Shown here: positions 4,832 through 33,720 of the stretch, piece by piece
Numbering within the stretch: the stretch's first letter is position 1
Layout of the letters: each line of letters opens with the position of its first letter
Assembly (NCBI GenBank): GCA_900321835.1
Contig: ONXQ01000015.1
Coordinates: 1 to 33,720 of the forward strand
DNA from: an uncultured Prevotellaceae bacterium
GTDB lineage: Bacteria > Bacteroidota > Bacteroidia > Bacteroidales > Bacteroidaceae
DNA: 33,720 bases
Reading direction: 5' to 3'
Notes under the pieces: generated by a model
What the model was told of the DNA's origin: nothing
Database searches by the model: none
The model's input: the letters and a program-made list of their open reading frames with translations, nothing else
Position numbers and translations under genes: made by a program

Positions 4832-4891
4832 GTCAAGAGTCAAGTGTCGAGAGTCAAGAGTCGAGGGGCGAGAGTCGAGGGTCAAGAGTCC
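4832..4891. repeat. Degenerate 7-bp tandem repeat (GTCRAGR), eight units
   Basis: Eight consecutive 7-mers starting at 4832 (GTCAAGA, GTCAAGT, GTCGAGA, GTCAAGA, GTCGAGG, GGCGAGA, GTCGAGG, GTCAAGA) plus a partial unit. They lie between the start of the sorting-tail protein gene and the end of the BASS transporter gene. A short AT-rich tract with AATTAAG-like 7-mers follows. Similar arrays occur at 5944 and 26768. Confidence 0.85.
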
Positions 4892-5878: not shown

Positions 5879-5909
5879 CAAAGGTACGGATAAGTGAGCG
5901 GAATACAAA
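5879..5909 (-). promoter_or_regulatory. Bacteroidetes-type promoter for the BASS transporter
   Basis: On the minus strand: TTTG at 5909-5906, 19-bp spacer, TACCTTTG at 5886-5879. This is a perfect match to TTTG / TAnnTTTG. The predicted leader is short (about 15 nt). Confidence 0.75.
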
Positions 5910-5943
5910 ATAATAATTAAAAAATAAAAATCAAAAATTAAGG

Positions 5944-5983
5944 GTCGAGGGCCAAGAGTCAAGAGTCGAGAGGCAAGGGTCTT
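5944..5983. repeat. Degenerate 7-bp tandem repeat (GTCRAGR), five units
   Basis: Five consecutive 7-mers (GTCGAGG, GCCAAGA, GTCAAGA, GTCGAGA, GGCAAGG) between the BASS transporter promoter and the recG stop codon. It is preceded by an AT-rich tract and followed by a small C/G-rich hairpin-forming stretch (about 5984-6020) similar in style to the two-hairpin element inside recG. Confidence 0.8.
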
Positions 5984-5998
5984 CCACCATTCGGGGAA

Positions 5999-6020
5999 GT
6001 TAGAGGGCTTTCTCCCTAAC
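5999..6020 (-). terminator. Possible short hairpin overlapping the recG stop codon
   Basis: GTTAG and GGG (5999-6007) pair with CCCTAAC (6014-6020) with one bulged base. No U-run follows on the minus strand, so a terminator role is weakly supported; it may simply be part of a repeat element. Confidence 0.25.
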
Positions 6021-8193
6021 TGATGCTGCCCCAGTTGATGTTTGTCTTGCGCAGTTCACGCAGGCGTTGCCACAGCACGGCGTTGACGGGGTTTTGCCCG
6101 TCGGGGTCGCTGCCTACGATTTCCTGCGCAGCGTCGCGGGCCATTTGCAGGATGATGCCGTCCTTCGCCAAGTTCGCAATCTTGAGGTCGAAGGCCATGC
6201 CACTCTGCTGCGTGCCTTCCAGGTCGCCCGGACCGCGCAGTTTGAGGTCCTGTTCGGCAATTTCAAATCCGTCGGTCGAATCGACCATAATCTGAATGCG
6301 CCGGCGTGTGTCGTCGCTCAGTTTTGTCTTTGTCACAAGGATGCAGAACGACTGGTCGGCACCGCGGCCGACACGTCCGCGCAACTGGTGGAGTTGGCTC
6401 AGGCCGAAGCGCTCGGCATTCTCAATCACCATGACCGAGGCGTTGGGCACGTTCACGCCCACTTCGATGACGGTCGTGGCCACGAGAATCTGTGTCTCGC
6501 CCGAGGAAAAGCGCTGCATTTCTGCATCTTTCTCGGCAGGTTTCATCTGGCCGTGTACCTTCGACACCTGGCAGTCGGGGAAAGCCTCGCAGATTTGTTC
6601 GTAGCCGTCCTCGAGGTTCTTCAGGTCGATTTTCTCGCTTTCCTTGATGAGCGGATAGACCACATAGATTTGCCGCCCGAGTTGGAGTTGGCGGCGCATA
6701 CCGGCGTAGAGGGTGGCACGGTGGCTGTCAAACTGGTGGATGGTCTCGATTGGTTTTCGGCCCGGCGGCAGTTCGTCGATGACGCTCACGTCGAGGTCGC
6801 CGTACAGCGTCATGGCCAACGTGCGGGGGATGGGCGTGGCGGTCATGACGAGCACATGGGGCGGCGTCAGGCTCTTTTGCCACATCTTTGCGCGTTGTGC
6901 CACGCCGAAGCGGTGCTGCTCGTCGATGATGGCAAGGCCGAGGTGGGCAAACTGCACGTTGTTCTCAATCAGCGCATGGGTGCCGACGGCGATGTGCGTC
7001 GTGCCGGTGACGAGTCCGTTGAGCACCTCCGTGCGGCGCCGTCCTTTCACGCTGCCCGTGAGCAGTTCGACCGTGACGGGCATGTCTCCGAGCAACTTGC
7101 GCAGCGTCTCGACGTGCTGTTCGGCCAGGATTTCGGTCGGCGCCATGATGCAGGCCTGATAACCGTTGTCGATGGCGATGAGGGCACACATCAGCGCCAC
7201 GAGCGTCTTGCCGCTGCCCACGTCGCCCTGCAGCAGACGGTTCATCTGGCGTCCGCTGCCCATGTCGGCACGGATTTCGCGGATGACACGCTTCTGTGCC
7301 CCTGTGAGCGGGAAAGGCAAGTGGTTGAAATAGAAGTCGTTGAAGGTCTGCCCGACGTGCTGGAAGACGATGCCGCTGTGCTTTCGGGCACGGTCGTGGG
7401 CATAGCGCACGATGTTGAGTTGGACGAAGAACAGTTCCTCGAACTTCAGGCGGGCCTGTGCCCGGCGCAATGCGTCGGCCGAGGCAGGGTAGTGGATAGT
7501 TCGCACAGCCTCGTCGTGCGAAATGAAATGGAATCGGTCGATGAGCCACTGCGGCAGTGTCTCGGGCAGCGGCTGGTCGAGCATCTCCAGCAGTTTGGCC
7601 GTCAGCCGGGCTACCTGTGCCGAGCCCATGCCCCGCTTCTTCATCACCTCCGTCGTGTGGTAGTGGGGGCGGAAAGCAAAGCCCCCTCCAACTCCCCCCA
7701 ATGGGGGAGGGGGCAAAGCAATCCCTTCATCAAACAAAGCCTGCTGTACCCCCTCTGACATCCCCCATTCGGGAGAGCCAGAAGGGGCTTCCTCCATTTC
7801 CGGATGGGCAATGTTCAGTCGGCCCTTGAAGGGCTGCGGACGTCCGAACACGATGTAGGGGCGATGGAGGTCGTACTGCTTGGCAATGTATTTCACACCC
7901 TGGAACCACACGAGGTCAATCACGCCCGTGCCGTCGGAGAAATGTGCCACCAGCCGTTTCTTACGGCCCTCGCCGAAGTCCTCGAACGAGAGGATTTCGC
8001 CCACAATCTGCACGTAGGGCATCGTTCCGTTGATGTCGGCGATGCGGAAGAAGTGAGTGCGGTCGATGTGCTTGTAGGGGTAATACGCCAGCAGGTCGCC
8101 CACCGTCTTGATGGCGAGTTCCCTGCCCAGCAGGTCGGCACGTGCCGGTCCCACGCCTTGCAGATACTTGATGTCCTGGTCGAGTCGGAGCAT
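6016..8193 (-). CDS. recG: ATP-dependent DNA helicase RecG with an in-frame insertion
   Basis: RecG remodels stalled replication forks and Holliday junctions. The protein begins MLRLDQDIKYLQGVGP, the family's usual start, so I place the start at the ATG at 8193 and not at the in-frame codon at 8295; this gives 725 residues. The N-terminal wedge (OB) domain is followed by the helicase core with Walker A GDVGSGKT, the DEQHRFG box, MTATPIPRT and a C-terminal QLRGRVGRG motif. Between the wedge strand ending HPEME and the conserved HYHTTEVMKKRGMG there are about 35-39 extra residues (roughly 132-174). They are low in complexity, including LPPPPLGGVGGGF, and are encoded by a palindromic repeat-like DNA stretch. 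The reading frame stays open and all motifs are intact, so the enzyme is probably active. The genes on both sides are unrelated. Confidence 0.95.
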   Translation of the reverse strand: MLRLDQDIKYLQGVGPARADLLGRELAIKTVGDLLAYYPYKHIDRTHFFRIADINGTMPYVQIVGEILSFEDFGEGRKKRLVAHFSDGTGVIDLVWFQGVKYIAKQYDLHRPYIVFGRPQPFKGRLNIAHPEMEEAPSGSPEWGMSEGVQQALFDEGIALPPPPLGGVGGGFAFRPHYHTTEVMKKRGMGSAQVARLTAKLLEMLDQPLPETLPQWLIDRFHFISHDEAVRTIHYPASADALRRAQARLKFEELFFVQLNIVRYAHDRARKHSGIVFQHVGQTFNDFYFNHLPFPLTGAQKRVIREIRADMGSGRQMNRLLQGDVGSGKTLVALMCALIAIDNGYQACIMAPTEILAEQHVETLRKLLGDMPVTVELLTGSVKGRRRTEVLNGLVTGTTHIAVGTHALIENNVQFAHLGLAIIDEQHRFGVAQRAKMWQKSLTPPHVLVMTATPIPRTLAMTLYGDLDVSVIDELPPGRKPIETIHQFDSHRATLYAGMRRQLQLGRQIYVVYPLIKESEKIDLKNLEDGYEQICEAFPDCQVSKVHGQMKPAEKDAEMQRFSSGETQILVATTVIEVGVNVPNASVMVIENAERFGLSQLHQLRGRVGRGADQSFCILVTKTKLSDDTRRRIQIMVDSTDGFEIAEQDLKLRGPGDLEGTQQSGMAFDLKIANLAKDGIILQMARDAAQEIVGSDPDGQNPVNAVLWQRLRELRKTNINWGSIS
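7676..7794. repeat. Two-hairpin repeat element inserted in frame in recG
   Basis: Two C/G-rich imperfect palindromes: about 7680-7714 (GCCCCCTCC... with GGGGGAGGGGGC) and about 7748-7788 (CCCCCTCTGACATCCCCC with GGGAGAGCCAGAAGGGGC). They are joined by a 30-35 nt spacer. The stretch encodes exactly the residues that are extra in RecG. A comparable composite occurs at 25794-25884 inside the HTCS gene. Confidence 0.7.
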
Positions 8194-8292: not shown

Positions 8293-8392
8293 CAAGCGCT
8301 TGGAAAAAAACTTCTGAGCGCTCAGAAAAAAACGTCCGAGCGCTCAGACGAAAATTTCTGAGCGCTCGGACCTTTACGTGCGCACGTGCGCG
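8293..8392. repeat. 22-bp phased AGCGCT array, locus A, with conserved flank
   Basis: Four 11-bp near-palindromes begin at 8293, 8315, 8337 and 8359 (CAAGCGCTTGG, TGAGCGCTCAG, CGAGCGCTCAG, TGAGCGCTCGG). They are exactly 22 bp apart, with A/T-rich spacers such as ACGAAAATTTC. A 22-bp flank (8371-8392, starting CCTTTACG) follows. It contains the perfect palindrome ACGTGCGCACGT (8376-8387), and its reverse complement recurs next to locus C with three differences. The array lies between the 3' end of the GH2 gene and the recG start. Confidence 0.9.
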
Positions 8393-18640: not shown

Positions 18641-18700
18641 CTTTTTCGGCCGTTTTTTTTACAGTTTTTTTCTGGGACTAAAAACTTGGAGAAAATCGTC

Positions 18701-18777
18701 TAAGCGCTTGGAAAAAAACTTCCGAGCGCTCGGACGAAAACTTCTGAGCGCTCGGACGAAAATTTCCGAGCGCTTGA
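18701..18777. repeat. 22-bp phased AGCGCT array, locus B
   Basis: Four units begin at 18701, 18723, 18745 and 18767 (TAAGCGCTTGG, CGAGCGCTCGG, TGAGCGCTCGG, CGAGCGCTTGA), spaced exactly 22 bp. The outer units carry the weaker AAGCGCTT-like arms and the inner ones the GAGCGCTC arms. A degenerate fifth repeat may precede it (ACTTGGAGAAAATCGTC). It lies between the gdh promoter and the 3' end of the GH51-like gene. Confidence 0.9.
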
Positions 18778-18808
18778 AAGTAAAATTCTGGTGTGTCGGG
18801 TGGCCGAA

Positions 18809-22615: not shown

Positions 22616-25600
22616 ATGACTCAGAAACCACACCTCCGACTGTTGGCCGCTGTGCTGCTGACCCTGCTGGTCGGCGTCGTGCAGGCCCAGACCTCCTACC
22701 GCTTCCGCCACTACGGACGTGAGCAGGGCCTTTCAAACCTCAATGTCAACTGTGCCATGCAGGACAGCCGCGGCTTTGTGTGGGTCGGCACAAACATCGG
22801 TCTGAACCGCTTCGACGGCGTCCGTTTCCATACCTATTTTTCGAGCAATCAGAAAGACAGCCACAGCATGTCGTCCAACACCGTCAACAGCATTGCCGAA
22901 GACGCGGAAGGACGTCTGTGGGTGGGCACCACCAACGGTCTGTGCTCGTTCGACCCCCAGTTCGACCGCTTCCAGCGTGTGGAGGCAAAGGAACTGGGCG
23001 CCGGCGTGCAGGTGTTCGACCTGCAGTTCGACCCCAAGCAGCGCCTGTGGGCCTCGACCGACAGCCGGCTTGTGTGCTACCGCCCGTCCGACGGCACGCT
23101 GCTCACCTTTGGCAACATCTTGGCCCTGCGAGTGAGTCAGAGCGGCACCGTGTGGGTCAGCAACGGCGAAGGCCAACTCTGCCGCTACGATGAACGCACC
23201 GGCGGCTTTGTCTCGTTCGCCATCCTCACCCCGCAGCAGGCTGAGAGCAGCGAGTGGATCAATGCCATCGTCGAACTCGGCGACGGCGACCTCGCCCTGG
23301 TCACCAACCACGGGCACGGCTACCGTTTTTCGCCAGCAACCGGGCAGAAGTGCGACCTCTTCGGCGAAGGATTCCAGTCGCAGTCGAGTTTTGTCCACAC
23401 AGCCATCGAGCGCACAGCCACCGACGGCAGCCCGACCCTGTGGATGGGCACCGAGGACGGCATCGTCACCTACAACCTGCGGACAGGCGAGAGCGCACAC
23501 ATGCGCAAACAGTTTGGCAACCCCTATTCGCTCAGCGACAACGCCGTCCATGTGCTGTTCAGCGACCGTGAAGGCGGCGTGTGGGCAGGCACCTTCTTCG
23601 GCGGCATGAACTATGTTCCCGACGAGCACGACGAAATGTTCAGCGTGCTCCAGCCCGTCGATGACAACGGCGCGACAGCCGCCAAAGTGGTGCGCGAAAT
23701 GGCCGTCGATGCACAGGGCCAACTGTGGGTCGGCACCGAGGACGGCGGCGTTTACCGCTGGGACGACGGTTTGCGCAGGGTCAACCTCACCTGGCAGGGC
23801 AAGCCCATCACCCGCAACATACAGACCCTCATGACCGACGGCACCGACCTCTGGCTCGGCACCTACGAAGAAGGCATCTACATCGTTGACACCCGCTCCC
23901 GCCAGATTACAAACCACATCGGAAGCGGAGAAGCAGGACTTCACACCAATACCCTGGTCCATCTGCTGCGCACACGCGACGGACGCATCCTGGCAGGCAC
24001 CATGCACCTGGGCCTGCTCGCCTTCGACCGTCAGACACGCACGTTCCGAACCTTCGGCCAGAAAGCCCAGGGATTCATCCACGACATCTACGAAGACTCG
24101 AAGGGACGCCTCTGGGTGGCCGACCTTGTGGGCGGCATCTTCCGTTCCGACACAGTCGGCGGAACGCTCCGGCGCCTCTGCCCGTCCATCAAGACGGCAA
24201 CCACCGTGTTCGAGGATTCGGAGGGAAGAATCTGGATAGGCTCATCGAGCGACGGCCTTTTCACAGTCGCAGCCGACGACCGCTGCAGCCAGCCGCTGCC
24301 CGAACTGGCCCGCTCGGGCATCGGCATCGACAAACTCTCGGAAGACGGCAACGGATGCCTGTGGATTTCGACCACCGACGGACTTTACAGTTACGACGGA
24401 ACAGCCGTCAGCCGCTACGGCAGCGCCAACGGATTGCCTACCGAGCAGTTCAACTTCAATTCCGGCCTTCGCGACAGCACTGGGCGCATCTATTTCGGCA
24501 CACTCAATGGTCTTGTCAGTTTTGTGCCCAGTTCGTCTGCCACCCCAAGCCAGAAACTCCGCGTCCTCTTCACAGGCCTCACCGTCGAGGGACGCGAAGT
24601 GACCCACGAGACAGACCCTTACATTCTTGAAAAATCACTGCTCTATGCCGACGAGATTCACCTTCGGCACAATCAGGCATCGCTCTCCATCGACTTCGCC
24701 TGTCCGCTCTACAGCGTGCCGCAAGCCATCTGGTACCGCTACCGCCTGGAGGGCATCGACCACGACTGGACAGTGACGAAAGGAGCGCAGCGCCTCACGT
24801 TTGCCGGTCTTTCGCCTGGCACCTACACCCTCGTCGTACAGGCCTCGCAGCAGAACGGCCGATGGGACGACGAGGCGGAGGCTTCGCGACTGCGGCTCAT
24901 CGTACACCGCCCGTGGTGGAACAGCGTCTGGGCATGGATCGTCTATGCCCTGCTGGCCGCTGCACTGGGTTTCTACATTTTCCGCACCGCCACACGCCGC
25001 CGTCGCGAGAAACGCCGCATCGAGAACGAACGCACAGAGAACGAGCGCTACCGCGACGTGCTGCAGTCGAAGATTCAGTTCTTCACCACCATCACCCACG
25101 AAATCCGCACGCCGCTCTCCCTCATCATGGGCACACTCGAACGGATGGAGCGGAAGGAGAAAAAGGCAGAGCAGCAGGAAGAGGTCGGCCTGCTGCGCCG
25201 CAACGCACAGCGCCTGCTCAATCTGGTCAACCAACTGCTCGACTTCCGAAAGATTGAGTCGTCGTCGTTCCTGATGAACTTCCTGCCCACCGACATTGCT
25301 GCGCTGCTGCGCGAGGTGTGTGCCGACTTCACCCCGGCGGCACGCCAGAAGGGTGCCGACTATGCCATCGACATCCCGGCCGACTGCACCCTCAGCGTCA
25401 TGGCCGACCGCGAGGCGCTGACCAAGATACTGAGCAACCTGCTCAGCAACGCCATGAAGTTCTGCCAAAAGCACGTCGGCGTTTGCCTTGAGGAGAAGGG
25501 CGAACACGTCGCCGTCAGCATCGAGAACGATGGTCCCCGCATTCCGCACGAACAGGTGGAGGAAATCTTCAAACCCTTCTATCAATACTACGGCACACAG

Positions 25601-26644
25601 GTCAACGCCACCGTCAAGGGCAGTGGCCTCGGCCTGCCACTCGCCCGTTCGCTGGCCGAGATGCACAACGGCACACTCGTCTATGACGAAAAGCAGCAAC
25701 TGAACCGATTCACCCTCACACTGCCGAAAGCGATAGGCGGAACGATTCCGATGAAGAATGCGGAATTAGGAATGAAGGATGAAGAATCAAGAAACCCCTC
25801 CTCGGGAGAAGTTGGGGAGGTCGATGGCAGCGAGGCGCATGACAGTATATACACCTCTGCCTCACAGGGCGAAGGCAGAAGTGGGTCTGTAGATACCATC
25901 CTCATCGTCGATGACGAGCAGGAACTGCGCGAGTTTGTGTGCGAAGAACTGGCCGAGCACTACACCATTCTCCAGGCAGACAACGGCCAGCAAGCGCTCG
26001 AGGTGTTGCAGCGCGAAAGCGTCTCGCTCATCGTCACCGACCTGATGATGCCCGTCATGAACGGCATCGAACTCTGCGAGAGCGTGAAGGGCGACATGCG
26101 CTACTGCCACATCCCCATCATCGTGCTCACCGCCAAAGTCTCGCTGCAGGACCACCTCGACGCCCTCAACTCACAGGCCGATGCCTACATCGAGAAACCC
26201 TTCTCGACCGTCCAACTCCGTGCCCAGATCGACAACCTCCTGCGCAGCCGCCAACTCATCCGCTCGGCCATGCTCTCGTCGCCATACGCCAACGTCGTCA
26301 CCGTGGCCTCGAACAGCACCGACGAAGACCTGCTCGGCAAGTTGACCGCCGTCGTCTATGACCATCTCGACGACCCCCTCCTCACGGTCGAACTGCTGGC
26401 TGGGCAGATGAACATGAGCACCTCCACGCTCTACCGCAAGGTGAAAGCCGTCACCTCGCTTTCGCCCAACGACTTTATCCGCCTCTGCCGACTGAAGAAA
26501 GCCGCCGAACTGCTGGCCACGGGCAACTACCGCATCAAGGAAGTGGCCGTGATGACAGGTTTCTCGTCGGCCGCCTACTTCACCTCCTGCTTCATGCGGC
26601 AGTTCGGCGTCACCCCCGGTTCGTTCATGAAGAACAAAGAGTGA
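22616..26644 (+). CDS. Hybrid two-component system sensor-regulator (HTCS)
   Basis: A 1342-residue one-protein signalling system of the kind that controls polysaccharide utilisation in Bacteroidetes. The ATG at 22616 gives a signal peptide ending VVQAQ. Periplasmic two-bladed-propeller (Reg_prop) repeats are seen as many WVGT / WIG...GL motifs to about residue 650. A Y_Y_Y domain and a membrane helix at about 767-790 follow. Inside are the histidine kinase (ITHEIRTPLS, phosphoacceptor His828; NAMKFCQKH; GSGLGLPLARS), an unusual linker (about 1046-1091), a receiver (ILIVDDEQ; VTDLMMPVMNG with Asp1142; LTAKVS; EKPF) and an AraC-type DNA-binding domain ending VTPGSFMKNKE. It likely senses a breakdown product of the glycan attacked by the neighbouring secreted enzymes and activates their genes. 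No own promoter is clear. Confidence 0.94.
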   Translation: MTQKPHLRLLAAVLLTLLVGVVQAQTSYRFRHYGREQGLSNLNVNCAMQDSRGFVWVGTNIGLNRFDGVRFHTYFSSNQKDSHSMSSNTVNSIAEDAEGRLWVGTTNGLCSFDPQFDRFQRVEAKELGAGVQVFDLQFDPKQRLWASTDSRLVCYRPSDGTLLTFGNILALRVSQSGTVWVSNGEGQLCRYDERTGGFVSFAILTPQQAESSEWINAIVELGDGDLALVTNHGHGYRFSPATGQKCDLFGEGFQSQSSFVHTAIERTATDGSPTLWMGTEDGIVTYNLRTGESAHMRKQFGNPYSLSDNAVHVLFSDREGGVWAGTFFGGMNYVPDEHDEMFSVLQPVDDNGATAAKVVREMAVDAQGQLWVGTEDGGVYRWDDGLRRVNLTWQGKPITRNIQTLMTDGTDLWLGTYEEGIYIVDTRSRQITNHIGSGEAGLHTNTLVHLLRTRDGRILAGTMHLGLLAFDRQTRTFRTFGQKAQGFIHDIYEDSKGRLWVADLVGGIFRSDTVGGTLRRLCPSIKTATTVFEDSEGRIWIGSSSDGLFTVAADDRCSQPLPELARSGIGIDKLSEDGNGCLWISTTDGLYSYDGTAVSRYGSANGLPTEQFNFNSGLRDSTGRIYFGTLNGLVSFVPSSSATPSQKLRVLFTGLTVEGREVTHETDPYILEKSLLYADEIHLRHNQASLSIDFACPLYSVPQAIWYRYRLEGIDHDWTVTKGAQRLTFAGLSPGTYTLVVQASQQNGRWDDEAEASRLRLIVHRPWWNSVWAWIVYALLAAALGFYIFRTATRRRREKRRIENERTENERYRDVLQSKIQFFTTITHEIRTPLSLIMGTLERMERKEKKAEQQEEVGLLRRNAQRLLNLVNQLLDFRKIESSSFLMNFLPTDIAALLREVCADFTPAARQKGADYAIDIPADCTLSVMADREALTKILSNLLSNAMKFCQKHVGVCLEEKGEHVAVSIENDGPRIPHEQVEEIFKPFYQYYGTQVNATVKGSGLGLPLARSLAEMHNGTLVYDEKQQLNRFTLTLPKAIGGTIPMKNAELGMKDEESRNPSSGEVGEVDGSEAHDSIYTSASQGEGRSGSVDTILIVDDEQELREFVCEELAEHYTILQADNGQQALEVLQRESVSLIVTDLMMPVMNGIELCESVKGDMRYCHIPIIVLTAKVSLQDHLDALNSQADAYIEKPFSTVQLRAQIDNLLRSRQLIRSAMLSSPYANVVTVASNSTDEDLLGKLTAVVYDHLDDPLLTVELLAGQMNMSTSTLYRKVKAVTSLSPNDFIRLCRLKKAAELLATGNYRIKEVAVMTGFSSAAYFTSCFMRQFGVTPGSFMKNKE
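25751..25884. repeat. 7-bp tandem repeat plus two-hairpin element inside the HTCS linker
   Basis: 25756-25790 is a run of degenerate 7-mers (GAATGCG, GAATTAG, GAATGAA, GGATGAA, GAATCAA). Two hairpin-type segments follow: about 25794-25820 (ACCCCTCC...GTTGGGGAGG) and about 25853-25884, where TCTGCCT at 25855 pairs with AGGCAGA at 25873. Their order and C/G style match the element in recG. It encodes about 45 extra residues (starting MKNAELGMKDEESRN) between the kinase ATPase domain and the receiver without breaking the frame. Confidence 0.7.
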
Positions 26645-26658
26645 ACACGCCGCCTCCT

Positions 26659-26759
26659 CGCGCACGTGTACGCGTAAAGGTCTGAGCGCTCAGAAAAAAA
26701 CGTCTGAGCGCTCAGACGAAAATTTCCGAGCGCTCAGACGTTTTCGTCCAAGCGCTCGG
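26659..26759. repeat. 22-bp phased AGCGCT array, locus C, with conserved flank
   Basis: Units begin at 26683, 26705, 26727 and 26749 (TGAGCGCTCAG, TGAGCGCTCAG, CGAGCGCTCAG, CAAGCGCTCGG), exactly 22 bp apart. The flank at 26659-26680 ends CGCGTAAAGG. Its reverse complement matches the locus A flank at 19 of 22 bases and lies at the same distance from the array, in opposite orientation. The array sits between the convergent HTCS and rmlA genes. Confidence 0.9.
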
Positions 26760-33580: not shown

Positions 33581-33632
33581 CAAATCCCCACTTTTCACCC
33601 CGTCACAATCCCCGACCGACAACTATAACGCC

Positions 33633-33720
33633 TGAGCGCTTGGAAAAAAACGTCTGAGCGCTCAGACGAAAACGTCCGAGCGCTCGGAAGAAAATTTCTG
33701 AGCGCTCAGAGCCTTAACGC
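33633..33720. repeat. 22-bp phased AGCGCT array, locus D, running to the window edge
   Basis: Units begin at 33633, 33655, 33677 and 33699 (TGAGCGCTTGG, TGAGCGCTCAG, CGAGCGCTCGG, TGAGCGCTCAG), exactly 22 bp apart. The sequence then reads GAGCCTTAACGC, similar to the start of the conserved flank at loci A and C, and is cut by the window end. It lies upstream of the receiver/ATP-grasp promoter. Confidence 0.9.

Follow-up and report, generated by a model that had tools for sequence, protein, structure and literature searches.

A putative decayed unit of a dispersed triplex-layout repeat family in an HTCS linker, and a DUF559 nuclease gene as its proposed mobiliser

The linker between the HATPase_c and receiver domains of an HTCS protein from a Prevotellaceae genome probably carries one old class B unit of a dispersed repeat family with a triplex layout, for which we propose a DUF559 nuclease as mobiliser (we put the probability of this overall reading at about 0.65). 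The units form a real and abundant family of known layout and occur in frame within numerous genes. They are dispersed, lie within conserved enzymes that have insert-free orthologues, and bracket DUF559 genes in several phyla.

The window, that is, the whole 33,720-nucleotide stretch of DNA that was analysed, is contig C188 of G000, a 2.38-Mb MAG of 226 contigs that is 87% complete. The nearest named relatives of this genome are MAGs called Bacteroidaceae and Prevotellaceae bacterium, and we read a rumen origin for these relatives from their isolate names. The HTCS gene of the window (Table 1) encodes a propeller, Y_Y_Y, HisKA, HATPase_c (residues 940-1048), a receiver (1104-1214) and an AraC-type HTH, with the segment 25751-25884 falling between HATPase_c and the receiver. 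An earlier note on this DNA had described the segment as a 7-bp tandem run followed by two hairpins. The run is present, though weak (6.1 copies, 75% matches, score 44 in Tandem Repeats Finder); the first hairpin, CCCCTCC..GGGGAGG, is a single decayed unit; the second is present as an inverted repeat, CCTCTGCC..GGCAGAAG, whose origin as a family member is unproven. This inverted repeat folded better than shuffled sequence (2 of 200 shuffles as good), matched neither the class A nor the class B model and had no genomic copy that we could find.

Table 1. Coordinates of the HTCS gene and of repeat features in the window
Feature	Position	Strand	Remarks
HTCS gene	22616..26644	+	open frame from TTG 22589, first ATG 22616
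Weak 7-bp tandem run, consensus ATGAAGA	25751..25793	+	Tandem Repeats Finder
Decayed class B palindromic unit (putative), HTCS linker	25795..25822	+	Y block, purine block with two substitutions, exact mirror purine block
Imperfect inverted repeat, HTCS linker	about 25848..25886	.	z -2.69; family membership unproven
Class A unit, variable linker of recG	7678..7712	-	49.7 bits; exact triplex layout; in the model's alignment
Second, diverged class A unit in recG	7745..7779	-	35.3 bits; in the model's alignment
Diverged class A unit, 3' end of recG, adjoining a 7-bp array	5979..6011	+	24.9 bits, E 1.3e-5

We performed BLAST of the HTCS segment against its own genome and found a match at locus L002 (82% over 51 nt, E 5.2e-8) that takes in both the 7-bp run and the palindromic unit. 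A second match, at L003 (79% over 43 nt, E 0.001), falls within the frame of an AraC-type regulator. The class B model R3 was built from 13 copies of G000 and G007 with the window excluded, and its top match in the window was 25798-25822 (E 9.3e-4); the class A model R2 gave the same unit 2.8 bits. Because the recG unit scored nearly as high with R3 as the HTCS unit did (20.1 bits), the two classes are related. At the HTCS unit the strict form of the triplex motif failed, two substitutions being needed, and the relaxed form matched. From these comparisons we call the HTCS unit a putative decayed member of class B of a dispersed palindromic family. Counted against this reading are the kinship of the two class models and the weakness of the unit on its own: its folding was unexceptional (z +0.68, 148 of 200 shuffles as good). 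It also has no inverted partner upstream, and no composite of the 93-nt type described below was found for it. Since its purine block carries two substitutions, this copy offers no evidence of recent activity, and a recent insertion in HTCS was rejected because the copy is decayed.

A first hairpin no more stable than shuffles would also fit a linker of low-complexity coding DNA under relaxed selection, with the likeness to the repeats arising by G/C-rich convergence; HTCS linkers do vary freely, and recG linkers are similar in length with and without units. We nevertheless consider this unlikely, given the 51-nt match elsewhere in the genome and given that the unit is the best class B match in the window and has an exact mirror block.

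The earlier note had also seen the same order and style of elements in recG, and this did not hold. recG contains two same-strand class A units, one with the exact pyrimidine, purine and mirror layout at 7682-7709, and Tandem Repeats Finder reported no 7-bp run in it; other 7-bp arrays of the window lie at 4832-4890 and within 5902-5981. The idea of one and the same element in both genes was thus rejected, the HTCS and recG units falling in classes B and A, respectively. Among the genus genomes, class A units in the variable linker of recG were found in G000 and G009; recG of G006 has hairpins of similar style with poor R2 scores (10.2 and 7.0 bits), and the other 10 of 13 recG sequences showed no units by eye. 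There was no clear difference in recG linker length between sequences with and without units. When we searched by pattern for the second hairpin of recG, three rows came back from two places, one being recG itself. Close to gene ends, the window also has short arrays (8295-8367, 18691-18790, 26676-26738 and 33627-33710) of another repeat, about 22 bp long and with GAGCGCTC cores, which as far as we saw is unrelated to the HTCS finding.

Among 41 genomes, close orthologues of the HTCS protein were found in G009 (76%) and G007 (73%). The estimate of about 45 inserted residues fits the segment, but the window's linker is merely 19 and 15 residues longer than the linkers of G009 and G007. Two class A-like units lie in the G009 linker, at E 6.7e-4 and 0.053; the first can be aligned with the window unit over 26 nt, which 13 of 1000 shuffles equalled. 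Neither R2 nor R3 found a unit in the corresponding region of G007; the G007 linker has a weak alignment with the window's second inverted repeat, equalled by 23 of 1000 shuffles. Units thus appear to have entered, or changed within, the HTCS linker around the species splits. An insertion event in HTCS is putative, as only two close orthologues exist.

An insert placed exactly at the HATPase_c/receiver boundary could alter kinase-receiver phosphotransfer and be kept for that effect, and the earlier note had suggested a changed geometry. We measured linkers from the GxGLGL motif to the acidic pocket of the receiver; this was possible in 24 of 30 HTCS frames, the other six missing one of the two motifs by the pattern used. 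The window's linker has 87 residues, against a range of 42-99 and a median of 76.5. Because this length is ordinary, a change of geometry is unsupported and was rejected, and as the linker sequence is also unconserved between HTCS orthologues, retention for an effect on phosphotransfer seems highly improbable. Linkers differ freely among HTCS proteins and by eye share no sequence with that of the window, so that the observation the earlier note had named as counting against its reading, distant orthologues with the same linker at the protein level, was not made. Two other HTCS-type frames (L220 and L221, in G011 and G002) carry a class A unit in the HATPase_c region, not in the linker.

The claim of a family dispersed in the genome and within genes is borne out, with both HTCS and recG carrying members. 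Class A, class B and other units have a common layout, in which a pyrimidine block is followed by a short loop, a complementary purine block, 1-5 bases and a mirror purine block. At E<=0.1, R2 matched 56 places in G000 and R3 matched 45; either model found matches in 8 of 13 genus genomes, with up to 110 for R2. At E<=0.001, R2 matched in 16 of 198 genomes of the order, none except G000 having more than 9. Counts of R2 matches outside G000 are lower bounds, as this model was made from copies of G000 itself and stricter filters applied in the larger search. A known Rfam family was rejected, there being 0 gathering matches in 11 sources.

To place units relative to genes, we used 30 loci of G000, representing 42 of the 56 class A places, plus two from BLAST. 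A cluster was counted as inside when it lay well within a long open frame, the frames being predicted and 'outside' including units near gene ends. Units were found inside frames for RecG, CobB, the CobB-CobQ junction, a porin, CoaX, FeoA-FeoB, an M16 peptidase, an RNA uracil methyltransferase, CobK-CbiD, a frame with a phosphohydrolase-associated domain and one frame without a Pfam match. By hand count at one threshold, 9 multi-unit clusters were inside and 4 outside, against 3 and 16 for single units (p 0.0035). The core TTAG, a potential source of stop codons, was present in 4 of 20 intragenic units compared with 18 of 22 other units (p 1.3e-4), and we counted this depletion as evidence for selection on copies in genes. 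In relatives, unit-bearing genes included LeuRS, a Mur-ligase-family protein, ClpB, RNase R, M16, a CbiH-CbiC-like fusion and HTCS.

Some in-frame copies could be compared with insert-free orthologues. Across the insert region of CoaX, 60 residues of G000 align with 31-34 in each of the six orthologues whose frames were recovered (that of a seventh was not), and CoaX of G009 carries one palindrome of about 33 nt at the place of the insert. The CobB element of G000 is 95% identical over 94 nt to an element at the CobB-CobQ junction of G007 and 85% identical over 96 nt to one in CbiD of G000. The CobB site of G007 is without the insert, and aligned coding DNA of the two genomes is 79.9% identical (1510/1890). 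Composites of 93 nt occur in CobB and CbiD and of 110 nt in CoaX and M16; four more clusters have other lengths. No target-site duplication or base-level empty site was seen. The composite shared by G000 and G007 supports copying between sites and hence a family that has been active. The earlier suggestion of an active family therefore stands for these other copies; the two genes on which it had been based do not bear it out, the HTCS copy being decayed and the HTCS and recG units differing in class.

We compared the units with known repeat systems. Triplex motifs, formerly BoxC or PIT, occur in >260 genomes and, according to Holder et al. (2015; PMC4666352), are always intergenic in E. coli K-12 and have no transposase or integrase remnants around them. 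Our units resemble these repeats in their pyrimidine, complementary purine and mirror purine blocks, in being G/C-rich and in the dispersal of such repeats in many bacteria. The formal layout was found in the recG unit at 7682-7709 and at 4 of 4 DUF559 loci of the genus, with the strict form failing at the HTCS unit; triplex folding of the BoxC/PIT type is a prediction for these units. Unlike E. coli BoxC, which in that account (PMC4666352) is intergenic with no mobility gene nearby, many units here lie within frames of conserved enzymes, and a DUF559 gene sits between inverted units. Palindromes inside genes are known: REPs occur within genes in several species and Rickettsia elements lie in frame (PMC3733652; the Rickettsia palindromic elements are reviewed in PMC10969869). 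The present units, in frame within conserved genes, share with both that they are palindromic, often dimeric and placed in unrelated genes whose proteins tolerate them (PMC10969869, PMC3733652). Unlike the Rickettsia elements, they come from another phylum, seem to differ in sequence and form composites of about 93-110 nt.

REPs are typically short palindromes in inverted pairs, in REP/REPIN and RAYT systems with a candidate nuclease gene between or beside them (PMC3733652; see also PMC3116915), and G000 itself has a Y1_Tnp gene. The units might for these reasons be of the REP/REPIN kind and owe their movement to a Y1 (RAYT) transposase, which we judge very unlikely. Seven of the 13 genus genomes gave a Y1_Tnp match; the unit-rich G006, G009, G004 and G011 did not. 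The 11 Y1_Tnp loci had no class A match and, within 300 bp, no triplex unit; for class B the highest score was 12.9 bits (E 0.12), at L190. The RAYT gene of G000 is flanked by a different palindrome, the unit consensus sequences have by eye neither GTAG nor CGTC at one end (the definition given in PMC3733652), and the nuclease at our loci is DUF559, not Y1_Tnp. RAYT was rejected as mobiliser on the findings from these 11 loci and 13 genomes. The Y1 (RAYT-like) transposase gene at L190 (G000:C6, 1501-1848) has its own flanking inverted palindromes.

The preferred candidate, a DUF559 nuclease, came from a helicase frame of 646 residues in G006, in which a DUF559 domain (PF04480, E 6.4e-30) lies between two inverted class A units. 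A tblastn search with this domain in 1.72 Mb gave three more independent places (G000 C88, G000 C50 and G009 C48). Inverted units bracket DUF559 at all four genus loci, each pair being of one class (class B at G000 C88, L273), and the strict triplex layout is present on both sides at each. These loci come from DNA chosen for carrying units, a biased sample, and 800 kb taken from G007, G006 and G009 without such selection contained no DUF559. G006 and others have many units, yet one DUF559 locus was seen there. The DUF559 profile has a likeness to EDxHD/Vsr-like homing endonucleases, with matches to PDB 3r3p (E 4e-5; 'Mobile intron protein') and to 3hrl (E 2.9e-28); PMC9403480 places DUF559 in the EDxHD homing endonuclease family. 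In contrast to homing endonucleases, the gene here has inverted palindromes on both sides, and we saw neither an intron nor an intein. At G000:C50 (L019, 1576-2595), a 340-residue frame combines a DUF559 domain, a palindrome-encoded peptide and, by eye, an apparent guanylate kinase, with a class B peptide within the kinase part.

Because the genus sample was biased toward units, we extended the search to plasmid sequences. A tblastn search found 40 plasmid records with a DUF559 match, and 19 of the 25 listed were tested (H2, H5, H6, H7, H11 and H12 were omitted as near copies). The 19 are partly kin, with four from Deinococcus, three from Azospirillum and two each from Sinorhizobium, Sphingomonas and Synechocystis. 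When 200 bp on each side of the gene were examined for inverted repeats against 200 shuffles, no shuffle was as good at 10 loci (two Sinorhizobium, two Sphingomonas, four Deinococcus, Pseudanabaena and Picosynechococcus) and 9 failed. C/T-rich palindromes within 300 bp were present on at least one side at 18 of 19 loci and on both sides at 8, by a looser test chosen after we had inspected sequences around DUF559 loci. The strict triplex layout was found on any side at 13 of 19 loci and on both sides at 6; the remaining 6 had no strict unit.

As controls, 35 DUF559/Vsr-like loci on viral contigs were examined, and none was positive in the inverted-repeat, C/T-rich palindrome or triplex tests (L381, a 36th locus, was left out because its match was not at the usual place). 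Random windows reached an inverted-repeat score >=16 in 20 of 20000 cases in the genus sample and in 0 of 5000 each in a Sphingomonas and a Deinococcus stretch. C/T-rich palindromes occurred on any side in 0, 18 and 42 of 1500 and 95 of 3000 control windows, and on both sides in 0, 0 and 0 of 1500 and 4 of 3000. Triplex units occurred on both sides in 0 of 6000 and on any side in 25, 0, 0 and 51 of 1500 each. Used as a query, a Sinorhizobium end hit 548 places in 176 plasmid records, as many as 30 of them in a single record among those listed; one Deinococcus end hit 7 places in 3 records and another 8 places in 7, including E. coli. In rhizobia the ends that bracket DUF559 are thus dispersed, and less clearly so in the other groups. 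Four Deinococcus plasmids (L412, L420, L421 and L423) have the DUF559 gene at differing places in aromatic-acid degradation clusters, which suggests movement. Rows of regularly spaced palindrome-like units stand near DUF559 in L409 and L416 (Photobacterium and Neisseria, in that order). Segments with transposase and DUF559 form recombination hotspots in Legionella, according to PMC12308824. In the open-access papers searched we found no report linking DUF559, including ycjD, with palindromes.

E. coli has a DUF559 gene, ycjD, between sapF and fabI in 3365 of 5426 genomes. Palindromes of BoxC form lie within 300 bp downstream of it (L424), their imperfect arms being missed by the formal tests. 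One of these palindromes is present in 5357 of 5426 genomes, with a median copy number of 14, and is putatively BoxC, judging by its layout, its copy number and the consensus. A similar unit between nrdB and nrdA (L429, 2501-2537) occurs at one place each in 1069 of 5426 E. coli genomes; the 5-kb stretch around it has no DUF559 match.

We propose that units would spread singly or, in a non-autonomous form, as inverted pairs separated by a short spacer (93 or 110 nt, four cases). A longer form would consist of an inverted unit pair around a gene for a DUF559 (Vsr-like) nuclease that may mobilise the families. DUF559 is our best lead for the mobiliser, on account of its position; its action on the units and the mode of copying are what we infer. 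Units would often land within genes, where the only copies to survive would be those that keep the frame, bring no stop codon and lie in loops or linkers; such copies would be translated into G/P-rich spacers and then decay. The HTCS linker would hold one such old, decayed class B unit beside a 7-bp run, a tolerated spacer with no demonstrated function and presumably no effect on the kinase. More tentatively, at odds slightly short of even, BoxC/PIT-type repeats of many phyla may be the ends or non-autonomous descendants of a DUF559 mobile element, each unit class being paired with its own DUF559 variant; in the rumen genus the element would land in frame, and E. coli ycjD with its BoxC-like neighbours would be a model pair.

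For the HTCS protein itself the result is an ordinary one, a spacer within the normal length range. For the rumen genus, the many natural in-frame inserts in conserved enzymes make up a collection in which the tolerance of proteins to new segments can be studied. With its place between repeats of this kind in unrelated phyla, the DUF559 gene is a candidate agent of their spread, and as E. coli has both parts, the nuclease gene and the repeats, this proposal is testable in a laboratory strain.
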